Origin: Halichondria panicea
Lineage: Eukaryota; Porifera; Demospongiae; Suberitida; Halichondriidae
Length of the DNA stretch: 64,000 bases
Direction of reading: 5' to 3'
Assembly: GCF_963675165.1 (NCBI RefSeq)
Contig: NC_087386.1
Location: forward strand, 4,532,169-4,596,168
The first letter of the stretch is position 1. The number at the start of each line of letters is the position of its first letter. The notes below the pieces were generated by a model. The model was given only the letters and a program-made list of their open reading frames with translations, made no database searches and was not told where the DNA came from. The position numbers were made by a program, and so were the translations under genes. Below, piece by piece: positions 9,691-54,900 of this stretch.

Positions 9691-10071
9691 TACTGTATAT
9701 CTTCTAATTTATCGGACACTTCTAATTACCCCGGACACTCTTTTGGGCAATTTTCGTTGTTCTAATACAACAGACACTCCAGTACTTTAATATTACATTT
9801 GTTCTAAATATCCGGACAATATCTTGAAAAGTTGAGTTACCATTCGTAGACGGCAAGTAAGACTTGGAGTGCTGCAGTTAGATAGCTTTGAGTAGCTAGT
9901 TTTAGATAGTTAGTGCAACTATTCAGTCGTACCTTGTTCTATTAAACTTAGCTAGCTCGCATGCAGCTGCTTGCTTGTTCTAATTATTCCGGACACTTCG
10001 CATGCTCTGTTCCAATTATACCCGGAAAATAATTATTTTTTGCTGTCCGATAAATTAGAAGATATACGGTA
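9691..10071. mobile_element. MITE family A (CCGGACACT repeats)
   Basis: 381 bp bounded by 28-bp terminal inverted repeats with a single mismatch, core tatcttctaatttatcgg. Inside are repeated half-sites of the type ctaattaccccggacac, ctaattattccggacac and caattatacccgga. Diverged copies lie at 19523-19896 and 32116-32489. Non-coding. Confidence 0.82.
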
Positions 10072-16600: not shown

Positions 16601-16977
16601 AATTAATTACATTTGTCAAGTAACATGCATGACCATGATGATATATATACAGGCTTATCAGAAGTGGAGGACACTCTCTGGGAGATGAGAACTAAGTGGT
16701 ATCACCTTGGTTTGCAACTGGGTATTGACAATGAAACTCTTAAGGTTGGTATTAAACTATAATTATACCTGGTTTTTCATTTGTTCATTCATGCATGCAG
16801 TCGATCAAAACGGACAATCAAAGTGTTACTGATAAGTGCTTCACTTCTGTTCTGGCCCACTGGTTATCTACACCCAAGCCCACATGGACTCAAGTTGCAG
16901 ATGCTCTTGGATCAAAGCCAGTAGACCATCCTAAATTGGCTAAGCAAATTAAAGAAAAATACTGTAGCTCTATATAG
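10676..16977 (+). CDS. ANK-Roc-COR-Death protein, copy 1
   Basis: Ten exons, all GT-AG and in frame: 10676-10692, 10891-11189, 11288-11386, 11521-11697, 12123-12206, 12283-12387, 14125-16382, 16452-16518, 16653-16744 and 16801-16977, giving 1124 aa. Residues 1-330 are ankyrin repeats (AWTPLHAASSKNRCNTVELL, GDTPLHCASRNCKNCVEMLL). A Roc GTPase follows: P-loop GEGGAGKST at about 348, switch II CYDLAGQKEF at about 400 and the G4-like VIVIGSHLDEL near 470. A COR region follows. The C-terminus (about 1037-1124) is a Death domain: VEDTLWEMRTKWYHLGLQLG, LAHWLSTPKPTWTQVADALG. This is the DAPK1 tail architecture without the kinase, and similar NLR-like genes are known in invertebrates. An innate-immune or cell-death switch is inferred. 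Cytoplasmic; no signal peptide. The first exon is only 17 nt (MAECI). Confidence 0.9.
10723..10827. repeat. inverted repeat in ANK-Roc intron 1, copy 1 only
   Basis: Arms tggcgctccatttgtttcat and atgaaacaaatggagtgcca flank about 60 bp. Unit 2 has only ggcgctcca followed by unrelated short sequence, so an element inserted or was lost after duplication. Confidence 0.7.
12051..12104 (+). repeat. 27-bp tandem duplication in intron 4, copy 1 only
   Basis: The unit beginning ctatagcttcgtgctagctt is present twice here and once in unit 2 (around 24656). A recent slippage event that distinguishes the copies. Confidence 0.85.
13663..13900. mobile_element. MITE family B in ANK-Roc intron 6, copy 1
   Basis: 238 bp, same ends and almost the same interior as 10361-10598. 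The same insertion is at 26252-26489, so it predates the duplication. Confidence 0.85.
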
Positions 16978-17374
16978 ACTCTATTGTTATCCATGCAATG
17001 ATCTAGCCTATAATACCATTTATAACAATATAATTATGTTATGTTATCATGTATACTATATGCATGCAGCTATATACCTTAAGGTGACATATTTTCGCGT
17101 GTATTAATTTCTGCTATTTCTGCGAATGAGAGTAAAATCGCAAAAATTAGTACTCGCAAATAATTGGCCGCCCTCTTGTTTAATGTATCCAGTCGACATT
17201 TCGCAAAAAATTATACCAGCAAAATGTACAAAACTGTAAAAACACAAACAAATCTACCTGTGTGAAAATATGTCACCTTAAGGTAGATCAAGGTTTATAG
17301 AGATCTACTATACAGTTATACTCGTAAAAAAGCAGTAAGCTAATGCGTCTATATAGCTGCTAGCTTAGCTTGAA
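16978..17374. other. convergent gap between ANK-Roc copy 1 and fucosidase copy 1
   Basis: Contains MITE C (17075-17285) and AT-rich spacer. No gene. Confidence 0.7.
17075..17285. mobile_element. MITE family C (TACCTTAAGGTGACATA)
   Basis: 211 bp with inverted ends taccttaaggtgacatattt and aaatatgtcaccttaaggta (one base of play inside). The interior has tttctgcgaatgagagtaaaatcgc. Copies are at 29664-29874, with diverged relatives at 18901-19110 and 31494-31703. Confidence 0.82.
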
Positions 17375-17916
17375 CTACTGTACATGCAACAGTTTGAAGA
17401 CCCAGGCATGTTGTAGACTGCCTAGAGGTACATCTTCAGGGAACGTTATGGAAAGTCCATTTGGGCCAGACATGGCTGAGAGTGCATTGTCCCCGTAACC
17501 AAGGAGATAGGTCTCCTGTGCTTTCTGGATCTGCTTTAGAACAATGGTCCCACCTAGATAGATACAAACAGTGATTAATAGGCAATACAGTTGTGGACAG
17601 GTCATTGCTGGCACACATAGCTGGGCTTGGCAGATTTTGCTCAATTGATGACCCATTTTTCTTTCTCTTTTCCCACCTATTTTTCTCAATTATGCTGCTG
17701 CTATAAATCGTGTTATACACAGCTTTTACGTTCACGTGGTGCAGCAATCAATACTAATCAGTCGATCGGACAATTCGAGTCCATAAAAAAATCATATTTT
17801 CGATAAATGTATTACCAGCTTTAGGTACAGTCTTCTACATTGTACATGACTTATAAACAAGATTCATGCTGTTTAGAATTAAGACTGACAGTTATAAATA
17901 TTCTCGTTCGTTCCTA

Positions 17917-18064
17917 TACCGTATAGCGGCTTATTTTGTATGGTGGAAATGTTTGTACGAAATTATTCTACCGCAATAGGTTCAACATCACTGTCCCAAG
18001 CTGTACGAATATTTATAATACTAAATGCATGGGTGTTACATACGAAATTACCCGCTATACGTTA
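17917..18064. mobile_element. small TACCGTATAGCGG inverted-repeat element
   Basis: 148 bp, ends taccgtatagcgg and cccgctatacgtta, inside the last intron of fucosidase copy 1; copy at 30506-30653. Confidence 0.65.
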
Positions 18065-18900
18065 TTTCTTGTCACAGTCATAAATTGTACCTTATAGTCA
18101 GAAAATTAATTATTTTCCCCAACATTCTCAATGCCAGGAATACCTAACAAAATCTGCCAATGCCTCGCTATAGTCACAAAACCATTCACCTGGTGTAGGT
18201 GGTCTGAAGCAGATAGCATAGACTATGGGATCCACAATTTCCTGCAAAGACATGAAAAAGTAAGACATGTATAATAATTATAATGCAAGGATGACACCTA
18301 TTAGCCACAGAAAAAAATGCCTTTACACATAAAATACGATTGTCAGTGTAATCTGATCTTGGTGTGGCGTGAACAGTATAAAACGTGGCCTTGTTCTCAA
18401 GCACAAAAATTGTGACTCTTATAAGCTCGGAGATGGTACATTGATTAGTGTACATTACTATACACAGCTGTAGTTGTGAACTCACTTTAGTGGCAGTGTA
18501 CCAGATGTCCTGTGCTGCTGTGTCATTTTGGAACTTCCAAGGCACAGTTTCGTAAATGGCTTCTCCATTGAGCTACAACAAAGCGCAAGCAAAAACAATT
18601 ACTGCATGCATGTGCAAGTACTGATGAATTACGTTCTGCACTGTAATACAATACCGCCTGTAAAATTTATCCAAGCAACAAGTAGAGTTAACTAAATTTT
18701 TAGAGATACAGAATATGTCTGCGAAAAGGAATAATTGACTAGGGATCGATGCAGGTTGATAGCTATATAGTGAGAAACACCTGTAAAAGCCGGGCCATGC
18801 CACCCGAACAAAGGATATCCTCGATCTCTATAAATGTACATATACTCCTTGGCGGCACAATTTGAACTCTTAATCTCTAAACACAGAACAACCTCTAAAA

Positions 18901-19110
18901 TATCTTAAGGTGACATATTTATTTTCATGGGTATTAATTTCTGCTATTTCTGCGAATAAGAGTAAAATCGCAAAAATTTGTAGGTAATTGGGAAATGCAA
19001 TGAATTTCATTAAAACCACTTGCAAGTAATTAGATACACTATGAATAACATTAATACACAACTTGAGCGGAAATTTCCACCTGTGAAAATATGTCAATCA
19101 CCTTAAGGTA
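18901..19110. mobile_element. MITE family C, diverged member
   Basis: Ends tatcttaaggtgacatattt and atgtcaatcaccttaaggta; interior motif tttctgcgaataagagtaaa shared with 17075-17285. In a fucosidase intron; copy at 31494-31703. Confidence 0.75.
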
Positions 19111-19522
19111 ATACAATCATGTAAATTGGCTTTCCACACTGTGTACTCACCTTTAGCCATGTACCCATGTCAAGGAGGCGCTCCTCAAAAGCAGGGACAA
19201 TACGTCCGTCAGCTGTTGGTCCCACGTTCAGGAGGAGGTTACCATTACAGGAGACAGAGGAGGCAAGTTGCCATAGGAGACGGGTGGTGTTCCAGAACCG
19301 TGTTATTCCCTCGGTTCGATCGTAGCCCCATGAACTCATCTGAATGGTGTAGCAACTCTCCCACTTGTAAGGCACCAGCTTCCCTGGAGTGTACCTAATA
19401 GAATACAACGTATGAAGAGTGGTAGATACGTGTACAGTGGTTGGTAAAAGTACGTTCATCGTAAACCTTCATGCAAAATGCACTTACATTTTTTATTGCA
19501 AGGCACAGAGGTGCTAATTATA

Positions 19523-19896
19523 TACCGTATATCATCGGACACTTCTAATTACCCTGGACACTCTTTTGGGCAATTTTCGTTGTTCGGACACTCCAGTGCT
19601 TTAATATTACATTTGTTCGGACAAATAATACTTTGAAAAGTTGAGTTACATTCATATACGTCAGGTAAGACTTAGAGTGCTGCAGTTAGATAGCTTTGAG
19701 TAGCTAGTTTTAGATAGCTAGTGCAACTATTCAGTCGCACACTGTTCTATTAAACTTAGCTAGCTTGCATGCAGCTGCTTGCTTGTTCTAATTATTCCGG
19801 ACACTTTGCATGCTTATAATTATTATGTTCCAATTATACCCGGACAATTTCCAAAATAATTATTTTTTGCTGTCCGATAAATTAGAAGACATACAG
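19523..19896. mobile_element. MITE family A, diverged member in fucosidase copy 1 intron
   Basis: Like 9691-10071 but the left end has lost about 10 bp. It ends only 2-3 bp from the exon-10 splice donor at 19899-19904. Confidence 0.8.
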
Positions 19897-20219
19897 TTAC
19901 TCACCTGTCACCACCTGTCTGATAGTCTCCTATGGCGGGTCTGCCCCACCTGGAGTTAACCAACACAGAATCTTTCACAGGACTCTCGTTGTACAGCCAG
20001 CTGAGAAACTGCGGAGACTTCCAGTACTTGATGGAGTCGTGGGTACAGGGGGCATCACCGGCACCATCGGCCCATATCACTTCAGGCTGTGTATACATGC
20101 GTAAGAGGAGGGGTGATTGTGAGTTAGAGTGTGTGGATGTGTGCATGTGGATGCCGGTGTGTGGATACATGTAGGTGAGTAGTGCCACAGTGGAGATTGA
20201 GCTTAGAAATGCAGCCAGT

Positions 20220-20746
20220 TATACCATAGATTGAATACGGAGAGGGATTGGAAACGGAAGTTACCTCGAATTATATCCGCGCTACGCCGGGGTTTAATCG
20301 AGGCTGTGTATCTAACGTTGGTAAAATCTTGTCTGCTAGATTATACTGCATTTGTACTAAAACTTGCACTTCCAACTGGCACTTGAGACCATATGGGACA
20401 CAGCACACCGATGAGTTGCACAGTCTTAGCTATATTAGAAACATTCTAGGTACATAAAGATCTCATAGCATGTTTTGTACCTCTAGCTCTCTTCACAAAA
20501 GTCAAAAATGTATTTTTTCTTTTCCAACTGATGCTCACCATTAGGGGGCATGAGAATGACATTTTAGGGGGGCTCTGAATATCTTATAGTGATCATAATT
20601 CATGAAACATTGTTTCCCGCGTGTTGAGCAACCGTAACACGGATTGACATCAAAGGCTCTCTGGTGCCATGCTGCAAATTCAATGTAAAATGTCACGTGA
20701 CGCTACTTCCGTTTCCAATCCCTCTCCCTATTCAATCTATGGTTAT
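20220..20746. mobile_element. MITE family D (ATACCATAGATTGAATA)
   Basis: 527 bp, ends tataccatagattgaat and attcaatctatggttata, continued by gagagggattggaaacggaa and its complement. Non-coding. Copy at 32813-33339; a single diverged end is near 57000 (gggattggaaatggaag). Confidence 0.8.
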
Positions 20747-22140
20747 ACTAAACAATGCATTTTGAAATAATAAAATTGCCTATTGGGAATACCGGAACTC
20801 GCCCCCCGAAATGTGGGATAGGCTCATCTCTTATCATTTTGAGTTACCATGGAAAACCTATTATACATGTAGATGATGTGATCATTGCAGTAGATGATGT
20901 GCAGGTGCAGTGATCCATGCTGTAAGTTAAAACCCACCTTGTATTGCTCCACCATCTCTTTGAGTGTTGGTAACAGCACCTGATCTGGGAAGAGAGTCCC
21001 GCTACAGTTATCTTTATTATCCATCTCGTACAGAGGGTGGTACCACTCTCGTAGACTGTGATACAGGCCCATATGTAACCCAGCAGTTCGCACGCTATTG
21101 GTCAGATCTCCAACGAGGTCACGGTTGGGTCCAACGTCCACACTGTTCCAGTTCCAGTGGTAAGAGTTAGGGAAGTTGCACCAACCTTCGTGGTGTTTGG
21201 ATGTCAGGACCACATCTGGAGAAAAGAAATTGCTCAGCACTCAAAATTAGGAGTGTTCCAGATCACTTAAAACCCTTGTGCATATACACTACTGGTGAAT
21301 ATACACCTGCATCGTACGTCACTTAGATACATACATAAGTTAGTCAAGCTTGTATCATGAAAGAGCGAAGAGTTAAACTTTTACTGTTCTCATGTACGTA
21401 TACAGAAGTAATTAATCGAAATGCAACTCACACTTTGCTCCGGCCATTTTGAAGAGGTCTGCCCACTCATCTGGTTGAAACAGCTCAGCTTTAAACATTG
21501 GCGCAAAGTCGGGAAACCTACAAAGTTACACACGCACAAGAGAGATATAGCTAAAATAATGCCGGACTTCAATTTCTTTATATTATTGGGCCATGCATGT
21601 TATACATTTCTTTGATCTTAACATTATAGGACTCCTAACACTGTAAAGTATCTCCCCATAATAATTATAGAGCATGTATCCAATGTTCATGTCTGTACCT
21701 GGTTTTTATCCCTTACATAGGCATTACTTTGATACCATAAGCAAAAGAAGAGTGATAGATGAAACTAAAATAACTTTAGACTTCGGTCCTGTGCATGGGA
21801 ACTTTTCAGGCATGACACCAGAGCAGCCGTAGTTTTTGTTGTGGAACTCTACGTACTCAGCCTCACCAGACATCAAACGCTTCCAGTACCACTCATTCTT
21901 AAATGCTGGAACGCTGTGTGAGGCGAGATGATATTCATAATTGAATAAGCCTTGCCAATCGTACATGGCCCTGCATACACTATACATGCACAGTGTTGCG
22001 TAATGTGCATCAGTATTATGATGTGAAGTTTAGCCCGATGCATAAGACTGTAGTGTCATATACTGTTTTGGATGAAAGACAGTACGTAATTAAGACAACA
22101 GTCCATTGTACTTGTGGTCAAAAATTCTGCAGTAACCTAC

Positions 22141-22205
22141 CTGTACAATCCCCAAACAACTGCAAGTAAGAAAATAAACAACGTACCTATACATTCCCCA
22201 ATGAA
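22141..22205 (-). other. duplicated 19-nt fucosidase exons, copy 1
   Basis: Exon 6a at 22205-22187 and 6b at 22159-22141, each between cag and gt, separated by 27 nt. The 6b donor is gtaggt here against gtaagt in copy 2. Confidence 0.8.
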
Positions 22206-23245
22206 CTGCAGACAAGAGATAAAATTAATATAATTATAGTAAAGAGTTTGGCGCTATCGTCACTTACTGAAAATGCCACTTCTACAGCGCTCTAACAATA
22301 AACCACAACAGTTCAGTGTTTACTTTATGTGAATGATCAAGTAATGCCTACTCCTCACCAGTGTATGTATAGCCTGGGAACTCTACTAGAGTGAGTGGGT
22401 TGCTGTCAACAAGTGCCTCAGTGTTGCACTCAAAATCGTAAATGACGGCCCTTGGCCATGGGTCACTCTCGCTGGCACTTGTCTCTGTATATCAAAATAC
22501 AGTCAAATGCATTTGGGTGCCTCCAATACTTAAATACTTCCACCTTATGGCCTGACCTTTACGATAAAGGAACTTCTACAGTGGCTAAGGTAACTAGTTA
22601 TTTGTAACCTCATGCAGTAGCTAGACATGTCTAAGCTCACCTCCTTTTCCATACACAATCCTTAATCCAGCAGAACTGTTGGACGCATCAACAGGGAACT
22701 GTAAAATATAAGTCAGCAAGAGCCAAAAGCAAAAAGTTTGTTTACAATAATACTACAGATACAATTATAATGATGACACTAAGTTAATACATTGAATTGC
22801 CCATTGTTTTTGGAGAGGGGTTGTTTTTGAACAATGTGCTACGATTGGAACCGTTATGCTGTTAGCTCCAGCCAAAGGCATCAGGCCAGATAAGAGAGTA
22901 ACAAAATCTCACCATGAATGAGGCATCCAGCTTTCCCATCGCATAGCAGCTATCGGCAGTGAACTGGTAAGCAACTGCAGGCCCAAAGGTAGAGTTGACC
23001 TGCATACACTGCTTAGGGATCATTGAATCAGGAATGTTTCCACACAGACCCAGGAGGTAGTTGTAGCCATTGGCCACAAATGATTTTGGGCCCATTCCTG
23101 CAAGTTTTGAGAGGTCATAGTTGACACAGTTGCCTTGATCTTCAGTAGAAGGTATGGAGAATACACAATTGTCATTAGGATCTTTCCATGCAACTGCAAG
23201 GGAGCAGAAGCAACCAAGAAACAACAGCGTAAGCAGCTTGGACAT

Positions 23246-23368: not shown

Positions 23369-26300
23369 ATGGCCGAATGTATCATGTAAGTTAACACAGT
23401 ATGGCTAATACCTCATGGCGCTCCAACCCAATTATTGACAATCACACGCATCCTTGTCTACTACTGTAACCTGACGCTCTTTTTTTTCAATTGCAGCAGG
23501 GCAGATTTATTATATGAACAGCTATACAGAGCTAGTGATCAAGGCAGTGAAAATGAAGTGAAAGAGCTTCTGAAGAAAGGAGTTGATCCAAATAGTGATT
23601 ATTACAATCAAGTTCACAGTGCTTGGACTCCTTTGCATGCAGCTAGCTCAAAAAATCGTTGCAATACTGTCGAACTTTTGGCCAAATGGGGAGCTGATAT
23701 AGAGGCTAGGGATTGTGATGGAGACACACCTTTGCACTGTGCTAGTCGTAATTGCAAGAACTGTGTGGAAATGCTTTTAAGTTGCCGTAGATCAGGTAAG
23801 GAACAAGTGCAAAGGTATCTCCGGCTGCTTTTGATTTTGCATTTATACCATCATTGCATGATCCCTGTTTATATGCAAACCCACTTCATTTAGGCATCAC
23901 TGTGAAGAATAAGAAGGGAAAGAACCCTAAGGAAATTGCATTTTCACAAGATATTGCGGACACCCTTGGAAAATACCCAGCACCACCTAAAGGTATAACC
24001 TCTCAATGTTTCAGTGATTTCATGATTCCTTCTTATAATTGTGTACAGATCCTCTGTCCTATTACCCAACGTTTCAACAGTTACATCAATTGCCTGAATT
24101 TTCTCAGACACTTTGCCTTAAATTAGGCTCTCACTTTAGATTAGCACGGGAGCAAAGGGGAAGCATTCGAAGCAAAAATCGTACTGCTGAAATTCTGATA
24201 GCTGCCAAAAGTAACAACAAGAACCTTACCTGGAGCGATATTGTGGAAGGCTTACTTGTTAACGGAGAGTATACACTTGCTGAGAGTATCCTTAGCACGA
24301 TAGGTAATTCCAGTGTGACTGTCTTTACAACGTATTGTAGTGAGCATAATTATGCCAGGATACAACATATACCGTAATCATTTTGGTTTACTGCATGCAT
24401 GTGTGTACCAACGTACCAATATGGCAGCAGCTTAGTACATATAATTATGTGCATGGGCCTGCTGGTCCTTGATGTGACCATGAAGTCAGTACGTGGGGGT
24501 GTAAGATATGCTAAATGCATTCATGTTGTTGTGATAGATGTGCACGCATGTGGCAAGCAGGTGCTTGTTGTTATTCATTTCTTGGGTATACACATGCATA
24601 TCTAATTCGATGAAAGTAACAATCTTGACTAGCTCGACTGCCATGGCAGCAACGACTATAGCTTCGTGCTAGCTTGCATCAATTGTGTATATCCATGCAG
24701 GAGTGGAAAAAGGTAAAGGTCAAGTGCCACTCAGATTTGCAGCGGGACTGGGATGGCTCAGTGCAATGAAACGACTTATTCAAGGTAAATCACAATGCAG
24801 AAGCTGTTAACTGTCAGCATTTAATAATTAAAGTGTGTGATTACATTGTATACTTAACAGGATTTGAGAAAATAGATTCGAAGGACAGAAGCCCTTATGA
24901 TATGGCGTACAGAAATAAGCAGGCAAAGGCTATCAAGTATTTGATGGACAACCAGCTTTTTAATGGTGAGGGAATCATAAAGTTACTGGCATGTATAATT
25001 AACCAATTTTAGAAATAGTATACCACAAAAACATTTGTAATGCGGAAATTGCTAGAATTGGCCAGGGAAAGCATAAAAAAGTATCGAAACAAGTGATGGA
25101 GGAGAGCCATACCAGCCTGTACGTCAATCCATATGAACATCGTTCACAGATCTAGTACATGACAAGTGTGAAATGACCTGATCGATGCCACTATTTTTAT
25201 ACCACCAGCTAGAGAATTATGCAAATGACAAGTTTGTACCGGAATAATTACAGTACTTTGTTCTCGACATAAATTATTACTATAATTATATGCACGGTAT
25301 TAAGAGTAAATATAGGAGTAAGAGTGTTGAACTGCTAGTAACAGCGTTTGCCTTAAGGTTACGGGGTATACTAATAAATAGCTCATCATAAGATATTTAT
25401 TTTGTTCATTTCTCATCACAACATTATTTTTGTAACTTGCAATGATTAACAATGAAACAATGCTAGCTACAATAATAACTCGAAGAGTTTATATGTCTTG
25501 TAATCCAATGTAGCAGTCTGAGGTCAGCAGGAAAAAACTGAAGATTTTGGCGTCAAATTTTGTTGACTGCATATAGCTTCCAGGTTGTATTTCTGACCAG
25601 TATTTGACGCCTGAAGACTTACTGAAGGGCAACTCGAAGAGATCTTATTCATAGAGACCTTACAGTATCCTTATCACTACTCTACAAGTCGCCGTATTAG
25701 CCTACAAAAACAGCTAGAAATGGCCGTATCTTTGATGCAACTTACTCTCTTGGGGAAAAGTTGTTCGAGTGGCCCTGCCCCTTTATTCGTATAATAAGAA
25801 ACAGCAGATTATATGGTAAAGGAGGTGCTAGGAATTGACGCAGAGTGACCATTGCCAGATGAGAGCTATTTTACTAGCAGAGCTTTATTGAATACCCACG
25901 CAAATTTGAGCGTGGGTGAAACAGTATACCCTAACCTTAACGTGCGGTATCACTTGATTAGTAATCAGTACTAATTTGTTATGTTAGCAACACTTTCGAA
26001 ACTGCACATGCTGATTGCGCAGTTCCTGATACAGGCAGTGCTACAAACCACAGACCGCAGTTTACTCATCACGATTCAAGTCATTCAAAATTCAGCTTGA
26101 AGCTAGCAATATATAATGCTCTCGGGCTGAGTAGAGCGAGTGCTCGAGCATTATTGCATCATGCATGCACTTATATTATTGCTAATTATAATACGGGATA
26201 TGTATAATACGGGATATGTGAACGTTTTTGGATCATGCGGACATAGTGATATACCGTATAGCGCGAAATTTTCGAGGGGATTAATTTTCGCGGATTTCGT

Positions 26301-29300
26301 GGGTTGGAATTCTACACGAAAATTAAGTCCACGAAAAGTGTTCGTTAATAAGAATTACCTGCTATCATGCAAATATTTAAAGGCGTGGCTTCCGGTAAGC
26401 AGTCATTCCGCGAACATTGTGCAACGAAATGGCTTTTAGAGGCCAATCCACGAAATATAAGTGCCTCGAAAATTTCGCGCTATACGGTATACAATATTAA
26501 AAGGCTATATCTGTGCAGTCTGTTTCCATTTCTGATTATTCTCTTCATTAACAGTTTTAAGACCGAAAATATGTGAAAAAGCTACAAAAGTGGTGCTAAT
26601 CCGGTTAAAACCAACACATTTTAGCCTACACATGTTAATTCAGTGCTTGAATCATCTCGTGATTATTATTTTTCACGTCCAACTATAATAAATCTATTTT
26701 TATATCAAAACAGATTGTCTTCAAATTGCTGTTAAAAGTGGTGAAAAGGATGAGATAGAATTTCTGCTCGCTCAGTGCAATAGTGATCCAAATGTAAAAA
26801 ATGAGGATGGTAGTGTTCTTCTCACTCAAACTCAGGACAGCGAAATCATCCTTCTTCTATTAAAACATGGAGCCCGAACAGATGACGCTTTTGCTAATAT
26901 TATTGGTCGAAAACACGGGTTACGGAGGCTTTTGTCAATTCCGCCTCCAGACAATCCTATCCCTATATTCTTTGTGGGTGAAGGTGGTGCAGGTAAAAGC
27001 ACTGTACTGAAATCATTACAAAGCCAGGAGAAAAGAGGGAAACCAAAAACAGTGACAGATGTTGATGAAAAAACGGTTGGAATCATTCCTTACACATTAC
27101 AGCTCTCAGGTAGGGAATTTAAATGCTACGATTTAGCTGGTCAAAAAGAGTTCCATGCCAGTCACTGTCCTGTTCTTAAGAATGCAATTCAAAGCTCACC
27201 ACCTATAGTAGTTTGCTGCACTGACCTACGAGAAAATGACGAAAGTATTTCTAAATCTATCAAATACTGGATGAGCCTAGTTCAAAATCAGTGTTCTGAT
27301 TTAGAAGGAAAACCTCATGTAATTGTGATTGGAAGCCATTTGGACGAGCTAAAAGCAAAATCTGATGCCTTGGAGAAAAAGAAGATATTTCGTCCTATAT
27401 TCGAACAATTCAAAAAATTTAAATTTGTCGATTTTATTGCGATGGACTGTCGTCTTACAAATACAGAAGAAATAAAACAATTAACAACCTTTGTAAGTAT
27501 GGGTGGAGATCAGTTTCGCTCTTCTGATGAGACCGTTCAGATCAGCGCTAGTGCTCAAAGTTTTTACATATATCTTCTCGACCGATTCAAGGATACAGTA
27601 ACTGTACAAGTGAAGGATATTCACCAGCAAATTGACTGTGAAACGCGTCAGACACAAAACAAACAATTGCAAGAAGTGTACTCTGTCATCCCAAGTACTA
27701 TTCCACGCCTTGTAGAAGTCTGTGACCAGCTTAATAAAAGAGGACTTATGCTGTTTATTAAAAACGAATCCAAGCTTGAAAATTCGCTCGTTATTTGCAA
27801 ATCCGAAAAACTTCTTTCTAACATAACTGGCAAAGTGTTTGCTCCTGAAAATTTTCATCAGCATTGCAATCTTGCTACAAGCACAGGAGTAGTACCATTT
27901 TTTAAGTTTGCAAGGGAATTTAACGTTGACATTGATAATCTTATAGCTTATATGACACTTCACCAGTATTGTTTTGAAATCAAAGACAAACAAGTGTTAG
28001 AACACATAGCTGTCACATGCAAAGAAGTAGAACGGGATCCAGACAATCGGTACTTCTTCTTTCCTGGCTTGATAAAACTAGAAACCCCAAAGCAAGTTTG
28101 GGAGGAAGATCCTACAATGAAATATCATTTTGGGTGGGTTATTCAAGCATCGCAAGATATTGAATTCTTTGATCCCCATTGTCTGCAGGTTCTCGTTTTA
28201 AGACTAGTGTTTACTTTTGGCCTTGCCCCCGCTGCAACAGTGCAAAAACACATTCCTTCCCTGCAACGATTTTGCTCAGTGTGGAAAAGTGCAATTTGCT
28301 GGAGCGACAAACATGGATTCTATTACGTCGAGCTTGTGGACAGTGTAAAGTGTTTCGTTCTCAAAATGCGATCCCAAAATCTGAGTCCTGAATTTTTAGC
28401 AGTTAGATCCAGAATAATAAATATTATCCTCAAAACAGCTAAAGAATGTTGCAGAGGTATTGAGACTATTGAATCTATAATCGATCCTCAGCAAGTAGTT
28501 AATCACGACTATCCACTTAATATTTCAAGTCTAACTCTTTCAAGCATATCCGACACTGCCAAAGCAGTTGTTTTCGGTGATAACAACGTAAAGACGATGC
28601 ATGGGCCGCAGCCTCTACAACATATTCTTATGTTTGAGCCTTACATTGGCTTGGATCAAGATACCCTCCAATTAATTCACAGCAAGAACAATACTTCAAT
28701 AAACGAAACAATTTCAGATGATTTTATTTCTAACTTCGCTAATAAAGTGGCCATTTCGGGAAACGATTGCTCAGTTTTGAGGAGAATCCTTAATCCTACT
28801 ACACACTCAGACAGTGGAGCATCTCAACTGAATAGTTCAAGACGAGAACTGGTCAAGGCGCTTGAGACATGGAGAGACCATGACCATACTGAAGGAACTT
28901 ACAGATCCTTGAGGGACACCTTGAATGGATATAGTATATTTTCAGATTCATGCGTTCATAGAAGCCCACTGGTAAGTTACGATCACTTTTAATAATAGCT
29001 AGATCTACAGTGATTGATTTATTGTTTATATTATATGCAGGACTTGGCTGGTGTTGACCACCTCGACTGTGACCCTACTGCCTTGAAGTCCAATCATCAA
29101 TATCTTAGTATGTCAATATAATAATAAGCTATATATAATAATTATTATAACATAGAGTCGCTCTATTTAATAGCTCTATATCGGTTAATAATTAATTACA
29201 TTTGTCAAGTAACATGCATGACCATGATGATATATATACAGGCTTATCAGAAGTGGAGGACACTCTCTGGGAGATGAGAACTAAGTGGTATCACCTTGGT

Positions 29301-29566
29301 TTGCAACTGGGTATTGACAATGAAACTCTTAAGGTTGGTATTAAACTATAATTATACCTGGTTTTTCATTTGTTCATTCATGCATGCAGTCGATCAAAAC
29401 GGACAATCAAAGTGTTACTGATAAGTGCTACACTTCTGTTCTGGCCCACTGGTTATCTACACCCAAGCCCACATGGACTCAAGTTGCAGATGCTCTTGGA
29501 TCAAAGCCAGTAGACCATCCTAAATTGGCTAAGCAAATTAAAGAAAAATACTGTAGCTCTATATAG
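23369..29566 (+). CDS. ANK-Roc-COR-Death protein, copy 2
   Basis: Exons 23369-23385, 23497-23795, 23894-23992, 24127-24303, 24701-24784, 24861-24965, 26714-28971, 29041-29107, 29242-29333 and 29390-29566, 1124 aa. Exon lengths and phases equal those of copy 1. The protein differs at few places that I can see: IIGADLL versus IIRADLL at the exon 1/2 junction, IACSQD versus IAFSQD, LAQEQ versus LAREQ, NLAWSD versus NLTWSD and DKCFTS versus DKCYTS in the Death domain. The ankyrin exons thus carry more changes than the GTPase, where the 686-residue stretch is the same. P-loop GEGGAGKST, DLAGQ and SHLD are intact. It starts 123 bp from the oppositely oriented fucosidase copy 1, while copy 1 of this gene has a MITE at the corresponding place, so the two copies have different promoters. 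Confidence 0.9.
26252..26489. mobile_element. MITE family B in ANK-Roc intron 6, copy 2
   Basis: 238 bp, counterpart of 13663-13900. Confidence 0.85.
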
Positions 29567-29663
29567 ACTCTATTGTTATCCATGCAATGATCTAGCCTAT
29601 AATACCATTTATAACAATATAATTATGTTATGTTATCATGTATACTATATGCATGCAGCTATA

Positions 29664-29874
29664 TACCTTAAGGTGACATATTTTCGCGTGTATTAATTTC
29701 TGCTATTTCTGCGAATGAGAGTAAAATCGCAAAAATTAGTACTCGCAAATAATTGGCCGCCCTCTTGTTTAATGTATCCAGTCGACATTTCGCAAAAAAT
29801 TATACCAGCAAAATGTACAAAACTGTAAAAACACAAACAAATCTACCTGTGTGAAAATATGTCACCTTAAGGTA
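29664..29874. mobile_element. MITE family C, unit 2
   Basis: Counterpart of 17075-17285, in the 397-bp convergent gap between ANK-Roc copy 2 and fucosidase copy 2. Confidence 0.82.
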
Positions 29875-29963
29875 GATCAAGGTTTATAGAGATCTACTAT
29901 ACAGTTATACTCGTAAAAAAGCAGTAAGCTAATGCGTCTATATAGCTGCTAGCTTAGCTTGAA

Positions 29964-32900
29964 CTACTGTACATGCAACAGTTTGAAGACCCAGGCATGT
30001 TGTAGACTGCCTAGAGGTACATCTTCAGGGAACGTTATGGAAAGTCCATTTGGGCCAGACATGGCTGAGAGTGCATTGTCCCCGTAACCAAGGAGATAGG
30101 TCTCCTGTGCTTTCTGGATCTGCTTTAGAACAATGGTCCCACCTAGATAGATACAAACAGTGATTAATAGGCAATACAGTTGTGGACAGGTCATTGCTGG
30201 CACACATAGCTGGGCTTGGCAGATTTTGCTCAATTGATGACCCATTTTTCTTTCTCTTTTCCCACCTATTTTTCTCAATTATGCTGCTGCTATAAATCGT
30301 GTTATACACAGCTTTTACGTTCACGTGGTGCAGCAATCAATACTAATCAGTCGATCGGACAATTCGAGTCCATAAAAAAATCATATTTTCGATAAATGTA
30401 TTACCAGCTTTAGGTACAGTCTTCTACATTGTACATGACTTATAAACAAGATTCATGCTGTTTAGAATTAAGACTGACAGTTATAAATATTCTCGTTCGT
30501 TCCTATACCGTATAGCGGCTTATTTTGTATGGTGGAAATGTTTGTACGAAATTATTCTACCGCAATAGGTTCAACATCACTGTCCCAAGCTGTACGAATA
30601 TTTATAATACTAAATGCATGGGTGTTACATACGAAATTACCCGCTATACGTTATTTCTTGTCACAGTCATAAATTGTACCTTATAGTCAGAAAATTAATT
30701 ATTTTCCCCAACATTCTCAATGCCAGGAATACCTAACAAAATCTGCCAATGCCTCGCTATAGTCACAAAACCATTCACCTGGTGTAGGTGGTCTGAAGCA
30801 GATAGCATAGACTATGGGATCCACAATTTCCTGCAAAGACATGAAAAAGTAAGACATGTATAATAATTATAATGCAAGGATGACACCTATTAGCCACAGA
30901 AAAAAATGCCTTTACACATAAAATACGATTGTCAGTGTAATCTGATCTTGGTGTGGCGTGAACAGTATAAAACGTGGCCTTGTTCTCAAGCACAAAAATT
31001 GTGACTCTTATAAGCTCGGAGATGGTACATTGATTAGTGTACATTACTATACACAGCTGTAGTTGTGAACTCACTTTAGTGGCAGTGTACCAGATGTCCT
31101 GTGCTGCTGTGTCATTTTGGAACTTCCAAGGCACAGTTTCGTAAATGGCTTCTCCATTGAGCTACAACAAAGCGCAAGCAAAAACAATTACTGCATGCAT
31201 GTGCAAGTACTGATGAATTACGTTCTGCACTGTAATACAATACCGCCTGTAAAATTTATCCAAGCAACAAGTAGAGTTAACTAAATTTTTAGAGATACAG
31301 AATATGTCTGCGAAAAGGAATAATTGACTAGGGATCGATGCAGGTTGATAGCTATATAGTGAGAAACACCTGTAAAAGCCGGGCCATGCCACCCGAACAA
31401 AGGATATCCTCGATCTCTATAAATGTACAATCATATACTCCTTGGCGGCACAATTTGAACTCTTAATCTCTAAACACAGAACAACCTCTAAAATATCTTA
31501 AGGTGACATATTTATTTTCATGGGTATTAATTTCTGCTATTTCTGCGAATAAGAGTAAAATCGCAAAAATTTGTAGGTAATTGGGAAATGCAATGAATTT
31601 CATTAAAACCACTTGCAAGTAATTAGATACACTATGAATAACATTAATACACAACTTGAGCGGAAATTTCCACCTGTGAAAATATGTCAATCACCTTAAG
31701 GTAATACAATCATGTAAATTGGCTTTCCACACTGTGTACTCACCTTTAGCCATGTACCCATGTCAAGGAGGCGCTCCTCAAAAGCAGGGACAATACGTCC
31801 GTCAGCTGTTGGTCCCACGTTCAGGAGGAGGTTACCATTACAGGAGACAGAGGAGGCAAGTTGCCATAGGAGACGGGTGGTGTTCCAGAACCGTGTTATT
31901 CCCTCGGTTCGATCGTAGCCCCATGAACTCATCTGAATGGTGTAGCAACTCTCCCACTTGTAAGGCACCAGCTTCCCTGGAGTGTACCTAATAGAATACA
32001 ACGTATGAAGAGTGGTAGATACGTGTACAGTGGTTGGTAAAAGTACGTTCATCGTAAACCTTCATGCAAAATGCACTTACATTTTTTATTGCAAGGCACA
32101 GAGGTGCTAATTATATACCGTATATCATCGGACACTTCTAATTACCCTGGACACTCTTTTGGGCAATTTTCGTTGTTCGGACACTCCAGTGCTTTAATAT
32201 TACATTTGTTCGGACAAATAATACTTTGAAAAGTTGAGTTACATTCATATACGTCAGGTAAGACTTAGAGTGCTGCAGTTAGATAGCTTTGAGTAGCTAG
32301 TTTTAGATAGCTAGTGCAACTATTCAGTCGCACACTGTTCTATTAAACTTAGCTAGCTTGCATGCAGCTGCTTGCTTGTTCTAATTATTCCGGACACTTT
32401 GCATGCTTATAATTATTATGTTCCAATTATACCCGGACAATTTCCAAAATAATTATTTTTTGCTGTCCGATAAATTAGAAGACATACAGTTACTCACCTG
32501 TCACCACCTGTCTGATAGTCTCCTATGGCGGGTCTGCCCCACCTGGAGTTAACCAACACAGAATCTTTCACAGGACTCTCGTTGTACAGCCAGCTGAGAA
32601 ACTGCGGAGACTTCCAGTACTTGATGGAGTCGTGGGTACAGGGGGCATCACCGGCACCATCGGCCCATATCACTTCAGGCTGTGTATACATGCGTAAGAG
32701 GAGGGGTGATTGTGAGTTAGAGTGTGTGGATGTGTGCATGTGGATGCCGGTGTGTGGATACATGTAGGTGAGTAGTGCCACAGTGGAGATTGAGCTTAGA
32801 AATGCAGCCAGTTATACCATAGATTGAATACGGAGAGGGATTGGAAACGGAAGTTACCTCGAATTATATCCGCGCTACGCCGGGGTTTAATCGAGGCTGT

Positions 32901-35900
32901 GTATCTAACGTTGGTAAAATCTTGTCTGCTAGATTATACTGCATTTGTACTAAAACTTGCACTTCCAACTGGCACTTGAGACCATATGGGACACAGCACA
33001 CCGATGAGTTGCACAGTCTTAGCTATATTAGAAACATTCTAGGTACATAAAGATCTCATAGCATGTTTTGTACCTCTAGCTCTCTTCACAAAAGTCAAAA
33101 ATGTATTTTTTCTTTTCCAACTGATGCTCACCATTAGGGGGCATGAGAATGACATTTTAGGGGGGCTCTGAATATCTTATAGTGATCATAATTCATGAAA
33201 CATTGTTTCCCGCGTGTTGAGCAACCGTAACACGGATTGACATCAAAGGCTCTCTGGTGCCATGCTGCAAATTCAATGTAAAATGTCACGTGACGCTACT
33301 TCCGTTTCCAATCCCTCTCCCTATTCAATCTATGGTTATACTAAACAATGCATTTTGAAATAATAAAATTGCCTATTGGGAATACCGGAACTCGCCCCCC
33401 GAAATGTGGGATAGGCTCATCTCTTATCATTTTGAGTTACCATGGAAAACCTATTATACATGTAGATGATGTGATCATTGCAGTAGATGATGTGCAGGTG
33501 CAGTGATCCATGCTGTAAGTTAAAACCCACCTTGTATTGCTCCACCATCTCTTTGAGTGTTGGTAACAGCACCTGATCTGGGAAGAGAGTCCCGCTACAG
33601 TTATCTTTATTATCCATCTCGTACAGAGGGTGGTACCACTCTCGTAGACTGTGATACAGGCCCATATGTAACCCAGCAGTTCGCACGCTATTGGTCAGAT
33701 CTCCAACGAGGTCACGGTTGGGTCCAACGTCCACACTGTTCCAGTTCCAGTGGTAAGAGTTAGGGAAGTTGCACCAACCTTCGTGGTGTTTGGATGTCAG
33801 GACCACATCTGGAGAAAAGAAATTGCTCAGCACTCAAAATTAGGAGTGTTCCAGATCACTTAAAACCCTTGTGCATATACACTACTGGTGAATATACACC
33901 TGCATCGTACGTCACTTAGATACATACATAAGTTAGTCAAGCTTGTATCATGAAAGAGCGAAGAGTTAAACTTTTACTGTTCTCATGTACGTATACAGAA
34001 GTAATTAATCGAAATGCAACTCACACTTTGCTCCGGCCATTTTGAAGAGGTCTGCCCACTCATCTGGTTGAAACAGCTCAGCTTTAAACATTGGCGCAAA
34101 GTCGGGAAACCTACAAAGTTACACACGCACAAGAGAGATATAGCTAAAATAATGCCGGACTTCAATTTCTTTATATTATTGGGCCATGCATGTTATACAC
34201 TTCTTTGATCTTAACATTATAGGACTCCTAACACTGTAAAGTATCTCCCCATAATAATTATAGAGCATGTATCCAATGTTCATGTCTGTAGCTGGTTTTT
34301 ATCTCTTACATAAGGCATTACTTTGATATCATAAGCAAAAGAAGAGTGATAGATGAAACTAAAATAACTTTAGATCACTACACACAGAAAGTAACTTACG
34401 AAAACTTCGGTCCTGTGCATGGGAACTTTTCAGGCATGACACCAGAGCAGCCGTAGTTTTTGTTGTGGAACTCTACGTACTCAGCCTCACCAGACATCAA
34501 ACGCTTCCAGTACCACTCATTCTTAAATGCTGGAACGCTGTGTGAGGCGAGATGATCTTCATAATTGAATAAGCCTTGCCAATCGTACATGGCCCTGAAT
34601 ACACTATACATGCACAGTGTTGCATAATGTGCATCAGTATTATGATGTGAAGTTTAGCCCGATGCATAAGACTGTAGTGTCATATACTGTTTTGGATGAA
34701 AGACAGTACGTAATTAAGACAACAGTCCATTGTACTTGTGGTCAAAGATTCTGCAGTAACTTACCTGTACAATCCCCAAACAACTGCAAGTAAGAAAATA
34801 AACAACGTACCTATACATTCCCCAATGAACTGCAGACAAGAGATAAAATTAATATAATTATAGTAAAGAGTTTGGCGCTATCGTCACTTACTGAAAATGC
34901 CAAATTTTGCTTTATCGTACCAGGATGGTTTGGGGCGGTACCTCACCATCTACAGTGCATAGCATTGTGATGTTATTTATTGCATGAGTGGAAATGATAC
35001 TCAAGTAGCATTTGAAGATACCGATACTATCCTAAGGGATACTGAATACATTTTGACACTCATGGAATAGGCACCCAAAGGAAGCTAACATACATGCATA
35101 TTCAACTAAAATCAATCCTATAAATACCGGCCATAAATCATGTGACTCTAACAAGCCATACACACTCACCTCCCAGGTTCCATCAAAGACTGGAGATTTA
35201 CAATCCCCCTTCGCTTTGGACACTGGACAGCCCACAGAATTGGGCCATCTTACTGAACAACGGGGGGGAGAGCAACAAAATTAATGATAATTATCCATAG
35301 CCAATTAAAGTGCACTGAGCTGAGGACTAGCTTTTTTTCACTACTCTCCATCTTTAATGTGCACTGCATATAGCGCTCTAACAATAAACCACAACAGTTC
35401 AGTGTTTACTTTATGTGAATGATCAAGTAATGCCTACTCCTCACCAGTGTATGTATAGCCTGGGAACTCTACTAGAGTGAGTGGGTTGCTGTCAACAAGT
35501 GCCTCAGTGTTGCACTCAAAATCGTAAATGACGGCCCTTGGCCATGGGTCACTCTCGCTGGCACTTGTCTCTGTATATCAAAATACAGTCAAATGCATTT
35601 GGGTGCCTCCAATACTTAAATACTTCCACCTTATGGCCTGACCTTTACGATAAAGGAACTTCTACAGTGGCTAAGGTAACTAGTTATTTGTAACCTCATG
35701 CAGTAGCTAGACATGTCTAAACTCACCTCCTTTTCCATACACAATCCTCAACCCAGCAGAACTGTTGGACGCATCAACAGGGAACTGTAAAATATAAGTC
35801 AGCAATAGCCAAAAGCAAAAAGTTCGTTTACAATAATACTACAGATACAATTATAATGGTGACACTAAGTTAATTGCCATTGTCTTTAGAGAGGGGTTGT

Positions 35901-36324
35901 TATTGAACAATGTGCTACGATTGGAACCGTTATGCTGTTAGCTCCAGCCAAAGGCATCAGGCCAGATAAGAGAGTAACAAAATCTCACCATGAATGAGGC
36001 ATCCAGCTTTCCTATCGCATAGCAGCTATCGGCAGTGAACTGGTAAGCAACTGCAGGCCCAAAGGTAGAGTTGACCTGCATACACTGCTTAGGGATCATT
36101 GAATCAGGAATGTTTCCACACAGACCCAGGAGGTAGTTGTAGCCATTGGCCACAAATGATTTTGGGCCCATTCCTGCAAGTTTTGAGAGGTCATAGTTGA
36201 CACAGTTGCCTTGATCTTCAGTAGAAGGTATGGAGAATACACAATTGTCATTGGGATCGTTCCATGCAACTGCAAGGGAGCAGAAGCAACCAAGAAACAA
36301 CAGCGTATAAAGCAACTTGGACAT
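29964..36324 (-). CDS. secreted alpha-L-fucosidase (GH29) with N-terminal MRH lectin domain, intact copy
   Basis: Fourteen exons: 36324-35989, 35784-35727, 35570-35445, 35252-35170, 34949-34892, microexon 34829-34811 (or 34783-34765), 34537-34400, 34110-34025, 33808-33531, 32679-32498, 31987-31744, 31161-31075, 30830-30779 and 30142-29964; 641 aa, in frame. A signal peptide ([17 protein letters not shown]) is followed by an MRH domain at about 25-200: [60 protein letters not shown] and Y fall in the order and spacing of the sugar-binding quartet of MRH lectins. The GH29 fold begins [19 protein letters not shown] and continues [27 protein letters not shown] and VIWADGAGD, with the Asp (about 401) at the nucleophile position, then a C-terminal beta domain to about 641. 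Predicted lysosomal or secreted fucose hydrolase. An MRH-fucosidase fusion is not one I know. Confidence 0.9.
30506..30653. mobile_element. small TACCGTATAGCGG element, unit 2
   Basis: Counterpart of 17917-18064. Confidence 0.65.
31494..31703. mobile_element. MITE family C diverged member, unit 2
   Basis: Counterpart of 18901-19110. Confidence 0.75.
32116..32489. mobile_element. MITE family A diverged member, unit 2
   Basis: Counterpart of 19523-19896, again abutting the exon-10 donor. Confidence 0.8.
32813..33339. mobile_element. MITE family D, unit 2
   Basis: Counterpart of 20220-20746. Confidence 0.8.
34765..34829 (-). other. two mutually exclusive 19-nt exons coding the fucosidase active-site strand
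   Basis: On the minus strand: cag, 19-nt exon 6a (34829-34811, ttcattggggaatgtatag), gtacgt, a 27-nt gap ending in a pyrimidine-rich acceptor, cag, 19-nt exon 6b (34783-34765, ttgtttggggattgtacag), gtaagt. With the flanking phases 6a codes I-HWGMY-S and 6b codes I-VWGLY-S. Using both (38 nt) breaks the frame and 27 nt is too short to be an intron, so only one can be included. 6a carries the His of the HWG motif that contacts fucose in GH29 enzymes; 6b replaces it by Val. Confidence 0.85.
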
Positions 36325-48620: not shown

Positions 48621-49627
48621 ATGGTGAGCCTTTGTTTCAAAATGGCGATACAAAATACCATGTGTTGGTGTCCCAAAAATCAACTCGATTTGTTCATAGA
48701 TACTATCTATGATTTGTTTTATCAACTCGATTTTATCGACTTTATCTGGTAGGGATCGACTCGATGTGTTATATCAACTCGATTTTATCCAGGTAAGGAT
48801 CGACTCGATGTGTTTTATCAACTCGATTTTATCCAGGTAAGGATCGACTCGATGTGTTTTATCAACTCGATCTTATCCAGGTAAGGATCGACTCGATGTG
48901 TTTTATCAACTCGATTTTATCCAGGTAAGGATCGACTCGATGTGTTTTATCAACTCGATTCCAGGCCGCTGGGGGAAAAGGCGAGTTTCGAGGGCGGCTT
49001 GATATCTAGGCTATCTATGGCCGGACTCACAAAGGCGCTAGGCACAGACAAGGCACTGAGACTCTTGAGTCCACAGGCAGGCCTACAGCAGGTCAGAGTA
49101 GCTGACCTTCCAGGTACGCCTGCAGAAGGTCACAGCAGCTTACTTGTGCTGGATCACAGTAAATTAAATCACTAAATGCTTGTCTACTTGACTCTTGAGT
49201 TCATGAAACATAGCAAGTAGCTGCTGTGTGATCTCAGGCTCAGAAGGTCCCCATATGAGCTACTCTGAGCTGCTGTAGGCGTGCATGTGGCCTCAAGAGT
49301 CTCAGTGCCCCTTGTCTACGTCTGAGCCTAGCGCCTTTGTTGCAAGAGTATATAGCCTCTTTATCAAGCCTCCCTCGAAACTCTCCTTTTCCCCCAGCGG
49401 CCTGGAATCGAGTCGATCCTCTCGAAATCGAGTTGATAAAACACATCGAGTCGATCCTTACCTGGATAAAATCGAGTTGATAAAACACATCGAGTCGATC
49501 CTTACCTGGATAAAATCGAGTTGATAAAACACATCGAGTCTATCCCTACCAGATAAAGTCGAGTTGATTTTTGGGACACCAACACATGGTATTTTGTATC
49601 GCCATTTTGAAACAAAAGGCTCACCAT
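48621..49627. mobile_element. foldback element 2: ~1-kb palindrome with ~44-bp direct repeats in each arm
   Basis: The ends are atggtgagcctttgtttcaa and its complement ending ggctcaccat. Each arm then has aaaatggcgatacaaaatac, tgttggtgtcccaaaaatca, an array of a ~44-bp unit (containing atcaactcgattttatccag and gtaaggatcgactcgatgtg; about five on the left at 48711-48965, fewer on the right at about 49395-49560), then ccaggccgctgggggaaaag and ggcgctaggcacagac with complements on the right. The loop is around 49110-49200. No coding capacity. Its inner part shares tccaggccgc with the family E hairpins. Confidence 0.82.
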
Positions 49628-51972: not shown

Positions 51973-54900
51973 ATGCTGTCTGGAAGTATTCTCAGTTGGT
52001 TAGTGCTGCTACTGACCCTGGCTGCTGTTACCAGGAGCGAGCACTATCACATTGTGCCAGTGGATTCAACTGAATTTTGTAATGGATATCGAAATGGAAC
52101 TTGTTTCACTCTCGAGCAGCTTGTTCAAACAGACCTGTTATCTGTTGGGGACGATCTCACCTTAAACTTTCTGCCTGGAGATCATGTGTTAACAGAGCAG
52201 TTATTGATTCGTAACTTCTCACATGTGAAACTTACTGGCAGCACAACTACAGCTGTAGTGGGGTTCCATAGCAATGGTACAATACGTCTTGTTAGTATTA
52301 CTGACTTGAGTATCGAAAACTTGGGTTTCGTTGGTTCACAAAACTCACATAAAGGTTTAATCATTGACAGTGCCCACGAATTCTCCATCAAGAACTGCTG
52401 CTTTATGAACTTTGTATTACTCAATCAGATGGAAACCAACATAGTTACAATCACTAATACTCAAGCTGCAACAATTGAAAGCACTCTCTTCATGAATAAC
52501 ACTGGTCAGGCACTGCACGTTGAGGCTGATGATGTGTACATAATAAATAGCGAGTTCACTAGAAACAATGGAGGTGCCGTTGACATTGAATCGAACAACT
52601 CTCTGATCAACAACACAGAGTTCAATTACAACAGTGCTGTGAGCGGAGGAGCATTACAAGTGGTATCTGATACTGTAGTGATTACTTGCTGTAACTTCAC
52701 AAATAACAAAGCTTCTAACTGTGGTGGAGCGATTGATGCTGCTAACTCAGGCAGTGTGTCTCTCTCCGGTAGCACACTGACAAACAACAGTGCTAACTAC
52801 AATGGTGGAGCAATGCGTGTTGGCTCAGGAAGTGTGTTCATCTCAAACAGTGAGCTGACAAACAACAGAGTTGGCTCTGATGGTGGAGCAATTTATATTG
52901 ACTCAGTCAGTGTGTCTATCTCCAACAGTGACTTTACAAACAACAGTGCTGATTACGTTGGTGGAGCAATTATTGTTGTTGCCTCAGGTAGTATGTCCAT
53001 CTCCAACAGTGAGCTGACCAACAACAGAGCTTATTATAGTGGTGGAGCGATTATTGTTTACTCAGGTAGTGTGATCATCTCCAACAGTGAGCTGACAAAT
53101 AACAGTGCTGACTATGGTGGAGCGATTAGTGTTTACTCAGGTAGTGTGTCCATCTTTGACAGTGACCTAACAAACAACAGAGCTGACCATAGAGGAGTGA
53201 TTTTTGTTAACACCGGCAAAACGTCTATCTTTAACAGTACGCTAGCCAGCAACATTGTTGACAATGGAGTGATTTATGTTTCTCAGTCTACCTTGATTTT
53301 AAAAGACACTAACATTACTAATAACATGGCCAGTTCTAAGGAAAGCATTATTTATGCTTTCAACAGTCGAGTCGACTTTAATGGATCTACAACACTCAGT
53401 AACAATCGAGGTGGTTTGTTTGGTGGAGCTATCGGTGCCTTGCAGAGTCAACTATACATTAATACAGAAGGTGTGATCATCACCAACAACACGGCAACCT
53501 ATGGAGGAGGGATATTTCTAAGAGAGAGTACAATCTTTGTAAACGAGCCAATAAAGATCTATAAAAATACAGCATACCAGGATGGAGGAGGAATGTATGC
53601 ATATTCTAGCAGAGTTGAGTTCCAATCAGTTCAGATGGTAGATGCATATGGTCAGCCACTTCCTCCAAATAAACAGAGTGAGATTGCTCACAACGTTGCT
53701 GAGAATAATGGTGGAGGTATTTATGCAGTATCTTCAGCTATAGAACTTACTCAATCACATGTTCACATTAACTCAAACACTGCAAACACTAATGGAGGTG
53801 GATTGTATCTACAGCAAAGTTCAAAACTGTACCTCTTTAAAAATAATGGAGAAGATTCATGGAATAAATTATATGTCAAGTTAATGATTATTGAGAACTC
53901 GGCTCAATATGGCGGAGGGATATTTGTGGCAGATGACACAGAGAGTGGTGCCTGCAGAGTAGGAGCCATAGAAACTGATGATACTCACACTATTTTTGCT
54001 GGCTGCTTCATTCAAACAATTAAACTATATGAGTGGCACAGGGACAGCTATAATCGAAATTATTTTAACACATTCATGACCAACAACACAGCTACCCAGT
54101 CAGGAGCAGACATTTACGGAGGTCTTTTGGACAGGTGTACAGTAAGTCAAAGTGTTGAATATTACATTTCTTCAAATGGATCTGGATTGGACTACGTAAG
54201 TAACACCACAAAGTTATCCACTGAATTATCAATCTCTTCTAAGCCTGTTCAAGTGATTTTTTGCAATAATGATCGTCGTATTATTTCTACAAGAAAGGGA
54301 CACAAGTTTAAAATCAGTGTCATGGCTGTTGACCAAGTTGGGAATCGAATGAATGCCACAATTCGCAGTTCTGTTGTCAGTGAGAGTAGAGTTAATCGTC
54401 TCAAAGAAGGACAGGCAAAACAGGAAGTTGGTGATCAGTGCACAGAATTAGAGTACAATGTATTCTCACAAGACAGCTCTGCTCAAGTGGAACTCTATGC
54501 TGATGGTCCATGCATCAATTTTGGAATTTCAAGACAAATTATTAGTATTTCATTTCAACCCTGCACATGCCCTATTGGATTCAAGCCAATTCAGTCTGAT
54601 ATTGAGTGCAGGTGTGACTGTGATCCAGTCTTGCAACAATATCAGATAACAAACTGTTCTGAGGAAAATGGGACCTTAAAGCTAGAAAGTAATACCAACG
54701 TATGGATAAATACCATCAATGAAACAGGGTATATTGTTAGTAATTGCACATTTGACTATTGCTTACGAAGGCCAGTTGACATCAGTCTAAGCAGCCCCGA
54801 CAAACAGTGTGCCGATAATCGAATTGGAATCTTATGTGGAGGATGTAAATCAAATTTCAGTCTTGTGCTGGCTACGTCAAAGTGTAAAGAATGCTCTAAT

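Follow-up and report, generated by a model that had tools for sequence, protein, structure and literature searches.

A candidate pair of mutually exclusive 19-nt exons in a FucA1-like fucosidase gene of the demosponge Halichondria panicea

The described systems closest to the locus analysed here are the human catalogue of mutually exclusive exons (MXEs; PMC5740500), the tandem duplicated exon substitutions (PMC9741552), exons 4a and 4b of OGDH (PMC7969005) and, with regard to the encoded protein, the glycoside hydrolase family 29 (GH29) enzyme FucA1 (PDB 7PLS, PMC9548408). As far as the available parts of these papers go, the exons of the first two collections are adjacent, homologous and of equal length, they code for the same piece of a fold, and their joint inclusion breaks the reading frame. 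All of this also applies to the two exons described here, 6a and 6b, which lie on the minus strand of a 64,000-nt stretch of the H. panicea genome (NC_087386.1, positions 4,532,169 to 4,596,168; hereafter the window, to which all coordinates refer). Unlike the human catalogue, whose search had a minimum of 10 residues (PMC5740500), the sponge pair measures 19 nt (6 residues), so that the human search would miss pairs of this kind. It further differs from the catalogued MXEs in that the swap loses one active-site residue, and in that the pair is known from sequence alone. In the case of OGDH, exclusivity was ascribed to a branch point too near the donor, and a short intervening intron is proposed as the lock in both systems; this intron has 118-131 nt in birds and mammals according to the available text (PMC7969005), whereas the whole sponge gap comprises 27 nt, with its candidate branch points located by eye. 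The sponge protein matches FucA1 in its domain and in D225, D276, E289, H133, H134, Y177 and W223. It differs from FucA1 by the replacement of His58 by Val in the form containing 6b (form B) and by an extra N-terminal region with weak similarity to mannose-6-phosphate receptor domains. Among the matches listed in the literature searched, we found no report of alternative fucosidase exons and none of mutually exclusive exons in any sponge, and the phrase "mutually exclusive exons" is absent from the available part of a paper on splicing in Amphimedon (PMC4432959).

Gene model and anatomy of the exon pair

The exons of the fucosidase gene were read by eye and joined, which resulted in a FucA1-like GH29 gene of 13 coding exons on the minus strand, coding for 602 amino acids. 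Exon 1 (35989..36324) has a hydrophobic start, signal-peptide-like by eye, and begins the N-terminal region that resembles mannose-6-phosphate receptor homology (MRH) domains; it is followed by exons 2 (35727..35784), 3 (35445..35570) and 4 (35170..35252). Exon 5 (34892..34949) ends with ...KFGIF and one base of an Ile codon, and the start of exon 7 (34400..34537) resembles SVPAWGSEWFW of FucA1. When exon 7 is taken to begin at 34537, its junction with exon 6 yields the family motif FGIFIHWG-Y-SVPA--EW-W also seen in human FucA1, so that the frame and the exon ends are well fixed. Exon 8 (34025..34110) is followed by exon 9 (33531..33808), which codes for KHHEGW with the fucose-binding pair H309/H310, and by exon 10 (32498..32679), which carries the nucleophile D401 in WAD as well as the acid/base D454. 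Exons 11 (31744..31987), 12 (31075..31161) and 13 (30717..30830), the last of which runs to the stop codon, complete the model, whose 3' end is its least certain part.

The 602-residue protein is unbroken with either 6a or 6b as sixth exon. The form containing 6a (form A) matched Pfam profile PF01120 (Alpha_L_fucos) with 379.5 bits over positions 11-345 of 345, and form B matched it with 372.5 bits. In a search of the PDB, human FucA1 was the best solved relative (4e-109); a search of NCBIfam gave no match. The N-terminal region of about 180 residues, coded by exons 1-4 (35170-36324, minus strand), had no match in Pfam. Searching the PDB with this region at E-values up to 5 gave two weak matches only (0.042 and 0.075), both to cation-independent mannose-6-phosphate receptor domains, and all seven matches obtained in the genome at E-values up to 0.01 lay inside the two copies of the fucosidase gene described below. 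The region may thus represent an MRH-type sugar-binding domain fused to the fucosidase.

The preliminary description of this DNA had proposed two adjacent 19-nt exons with splice dinucleotides, separated by 27 nt and coding for IHWGMY and IVWGLY, and the peptides, coordinates, gap and dinucleotides were all recovered as claimed, on the minus strand. Exon 6a (34811..34829) codes, together with flanking bases, for I-H-W-G-M-Y and retains the fucose-binding His (H222). Exon 6b (34765..34783) codes for I-V-W-G-L-Y with Val at position 222, and the gap between them (34784..34810) has GT at its start and AG at its end. The two exons share the same phase and are identical at 15 of 19 bases. The match to PF01120 and the alignment of the spliced model with FucA1 agree with the further claim that these are alternative exons at one and the same place in a GH29 gene. 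For an assessment of the splice sites, we built a matrix to which the two GH29 genes of the genome contributed 19 donors and 19 acceptors, those of 6a and 6b being excluded. On this small matrix, the donor of 6a beats 7 and that of 6b 15 of the 19 training donors, the respective acceptors beat 15 and 12 of the 19 training acceptors, and all sites of both exons lie inside the range of the 19 training introns. An alternative acceptor of exon 7 at 34594 is in frame and adds 57 nt (34538-34594, minus strand), equivalent to 19 residues after the swapped strand; we rejected it as a partner of 6b, as it is in frame yet scores below all 19 training acceptors.

Several other features were noted in the window and the genome. 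An element with long inverted ends (CATAGATTGAATA-GGAGAGGGATTGGAAACGGAAGT), MITE-like by eye, lies in intron 9 (32818-33338). An interspersed repeat of about 360 bp occurs at 9711-10067, 19534-19894 and 32127-32487; the first copy is 85% identical to the other two, each of which occupies intron 10 of one fucosidase copy. Two tandem arrays of 44-nt units (48773-49103 and 49258-49568) are inverted to each other and 83% alike, and a degenerate coding-like repeat of about 75-81 bp at 52829-53182, of the type S-I-S-N-S-x-L-T-N-N by eye, perhaps belongs to a beta-helix repeat protein. A scan of the window against Rfam gave no match. Silicateins are known from sponges, and a pattern which we take to be the silicatein active site matched twice in the genome, with 0 control matches. 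The conceptual pieces of one of these matches retrieved silicatein alpha from the PDB at 3.8e-61, the next chain being a cathepsin L at 1.6e-35, which supports the attribution of the DNA to a sponge in the preliminary description.

Frame, gap length and exclusive use

Translation stops after 237 residues if 6a and 6b are both included, after 233 if neither is, and after 246 if the 65-nt block from 6b to 6a is retained. Since all three products end prematurely, a productive mRNA contains exactly one of the two exons, and the earlier claim that joint inclusion would break the frame was confirmed. The accompanying claim that a gap of 27 nt does not allow splicing stands as an argument from length: the gap is below the shortest intron placed in this genome and below the shortest one among 312 ribosomal-protein-gene introns of Amphimedon. 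The only other GH29 gene listed in a family search, on contig C2, has introns of 49-147 nt (n=8), 49 nt being the shortest placed in the genome, and the introns of the fucosidase gene measure 62 nt before 6a and at least 156 nt elsewhere. For Amphimedon, the accessible part of PMC3412847 gives 37 bp for the shortest of these 312 introns and a median of 81 bp for the genome. A rough survey of introns in chaperonin (CCT) genes, based on 27 estimates from 45 of 76 rows with 31 rows left out, returned 55 as its smallest estimate, in a set-up where introns bridged within one match are invisible and short ones are therefore hidden.

Candidate branch-point adenines in the gap, located by eye, are found 12 nt past the donor of 6a and 8 nt ahead of 6b. 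With a branch point further upstream than the gap, the AG of 6a intervenes before the acceptor of 6b. Considering these positions together with the length of the gap, it appears unlikely that 6a is joined to 6b. A threshold of about 50 nt between donor and branch point is described for vertebrates in the accessible parts of PMC5740500 and PMC7969005, but it cannot hold unchanged here since 49-nt introns occur in this genome.

The exchanged active-site residue

Alignment places H222 opposite His34 of the Thermotoga enzyme (residue number counted by hand on the alignment) and H58 of FucA1. Form A is identical to FucA1 at all ten positions checked (H58, E70, W71, H133, H134, Y177, W223, D225, D276 and E289), where we take E70 and W71 to be the counterparts of E66 and W67 of the Thermotoga enzyme. 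D401 aligns with the nucleophile D225 and D454 with the acid/base D276, form A thus possessing the Asp nucleophile and the Asp that is the acid/base of the animal enzymes. Form B keeps the other nine of the ten catalytic or neighbouring residues and has Val at 222 in place of the first-shell His of strand 1. The roles of D225, D276, E289 and W223 in FucA1 are taken from the available text of PMC9548408, those of its three His and of Y177 from that of PMC6718869. An acid/base Glu that had seemed to be missing from the sponge protein was dropped as an issue, because D276 is the acid/base in animals (PMC9548408).

According to Table 1 of PMC7711723, three GH29 enzymes have the His of strand 1 in their first shell, and the mutants H36N and H36I were made in BiAfcB; the human counterpart of H222 is a fucose-binding residue, numbered H63 and hence five off H58, in the available part of PMC6718869. 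The preliminary description was therefore right in stating that the His of 6a binds fucose in GH29 enzymes. No statement on the strand-1 His was found in the accessible parts of PMC10154630 and PMC7718225. Two of the six listed missense variants in fucosidosis, G60D and S63L, are located in or border the swapped strand, and the G60D protein had no measurable activity; as none of the six falls within the active site itself, G60D bears on the structure of the strand and not on the His (PMC9548408, available part).

Prokaryotic relatives were collected with a query devoid of strand 1, so that the sample was not picked for the His, and the best 80 of at least 515 were taken. Many of these are Bacteroidota, and the sample represents close relatives, not the whole GH29 family. 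Within these best 80, His occupies the position of H222 in all 79 scorable sequences and Val in none; the remaining one (L060) is truncated by its contig. Position 225 most often holds Leu (44 of 79 among the best 80), the residue of 6b, and never Met, the residue of 6a. The exchange of His for Val is hence the sole non-canonical residue of 6b.

Origin of the pair and competing explanations

Exons 6a and 6b go back to a single duplication, head to tail and about 46 bp long: the segment 34758..34848 (minus strand) consists of two 45-nt copies, spaced by 46 nt and 76% identical, each with an exon and its splice sites. When the region running from 6a to exon 7 was shuffled 5000 times with its dinucleotides preserved, no shuffle contained an AG-N19-GT arrangement sharing at least 15 of 19 bases with 6a, the best reaching 12. 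Searching the exon pattern genome-wide (131.5 Mb, up to 3 mismatches) listed no place besides the four known exons, the control gave 0 matches, and no further copy of the pair was listed in genome-wide searches. When the window was scanned for tandem pairs of any kind flanked by AG and GT, six other clusters (counted by hand), mostly repeat arrays, were obtained, compared to 0 in each of 10 shuffles. Small tandem duplications are therefore ordinary in this window, and a duplicate alone is no sign of function.

The four known exons include a second pair at 22141..22205 (minus strand), identified by sequence match in a broken fucosidase copy (gene at about 18-23 kb) that belongs to a tandem segmental duplication of about 12.6 kb (10856-22278 and 23461-34902, 98.9% identical over 11,474 columns). 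Exon 4 is missing from this copy, exon 5 is reduced to about 11 nt, and exon 7 has lost its last bases and its donor; in addition, one base of the 6b donor is changed. The pair is thus present in both gene copies, as had been described, but we rejected conservation on this ground, since a copy that is recent and broken provides no evidence of conservation over time. The GH29 gene on contig C2 codes for FMHWGVYS in an uninterrupted exon, and without an intron at this site in that gene the exon arrangement is not general.

Beyond the anatomy, the frame logic, the origin by duplication and the identity and conservation of the His, which are observed, we judge it narrowly probable that 6a and 6b are a real alternative pair, which would provide an active enzyme and a form with an altered binding site and probably poor catalysis. 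In the proposed scheme, a 19-nt exon of a FucA1-like demosponge gene was doubled together with its acceptor and donor by the tandem duplication of about 46 bp, and the two copies would serve as alternative exons for strand 1 of the barrel. Splicing of 5-6a-7 would give a fucosidase with the active-site residues of the animal enzymes, splicing of 5-6b-7 an otherwise equal protein with Val for the first-shell His. Exclusivity would have two layers: the 27-nt gap may be too short for removal as an intron by the spliceosome, and the products with both exons, neither exon or the retained block would be frame-shifted, ending about 12 to 25 residues on. Form B is expected to keep the barrel fold but to be poor at binding or turning over fucose; it might serve as a weak binder, or its production might simply reduce the amount of active enzyme. 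What is claimed for the swapped residue is chemically sound, and a switch is plausible. The low share of exon skipping among splicing events in Amphimedon, 1.8% in the available part of PMC4432959, was counted against a used pair.

The main rival, which we consider unlikely, is that 6b survives from a tandem duplication by chance as a mere relic with intact-looking sites, skipped or used as noise, and drifting. Divergence is about alike in the exon (4 of 19 bases, 15/19 identical) and in the whole repeat (11 of 45, 76% identical over 45 nt), and three of the four changed exon bases fall in the two meaning-changing codons, as under drift. A dead exon would also be expected to lose the His that is kept in all 79 scorable relatives among the best 80 of at least 515, and the window has many unrelated tandem arrays. 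On the other hand, the 6b donor agrees at every base with the general donor consensus and scores higher than that of 6a, and a strong decoy exon so near should hurt the gene unless it is tolerated or used. Moreover, 6b has no stop and retains W/G/Y: in a neutral simulation run to 4 differences, splice dinucleotides, an open frame and W/G/Y all survived in 4.5% of 200,000 runs (0.045). As the simulation was simple and its criteria were picked after the sequence had been seen, this value is weak support for constraint on 6b.

A bolder version of the alternative-pair reading, in which the 19-nt swap would make a fucosidase of the FucA1 type, with its MRH-like sugar-binding region, bind fucose without cleaving it and hence constitute an enzyme-to-lectin splicing switch, appears to us quite improbable. 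Still less probable is a control by unproductive splicing, where a competing exon would yield frame-shifted, destroyed mRNAs (6a plus 6b, the retained 65-nt block, or neither exon) and thereby tune the level of the enzyme. All three such products do stop early, and intron retention leads the splicing events of Amphimedon with 45.0% in the accessible part of PMC4432959, but this explanation has no need for 6b to hold the frame and W/G/Y, and 6b alone gives a full-length protein. That both forms are active, with Val shifting specificity or favouring transfer of fucose over hydrolysis, is the least probable reading: the other nine checked residues are retained and F34I of BiAfcB, a change two residues before the His of strand 1, raised transglycosylation, best in combination with L321P, yet among the conserved BiAfcB residues tested, H36 (N, I) included, only changes of F34 clearly did so (PMC7711723, available part), and Val occurs naturally in 0 of 79 scorable relatives among the best 80 of at least 515.

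Returning to the reading of 6a and 6b as a real alternative pair, micro-exon pairs of this kind form a class that is invisible to searches with a minimum of 10 residues. If 6b is used, splicing would swap little beyond one first-shell residue of an enzyme, and the case would come from an animal group in which exon skipping is reportedly rare, as far as the accessible part of PMC4432959 goes.
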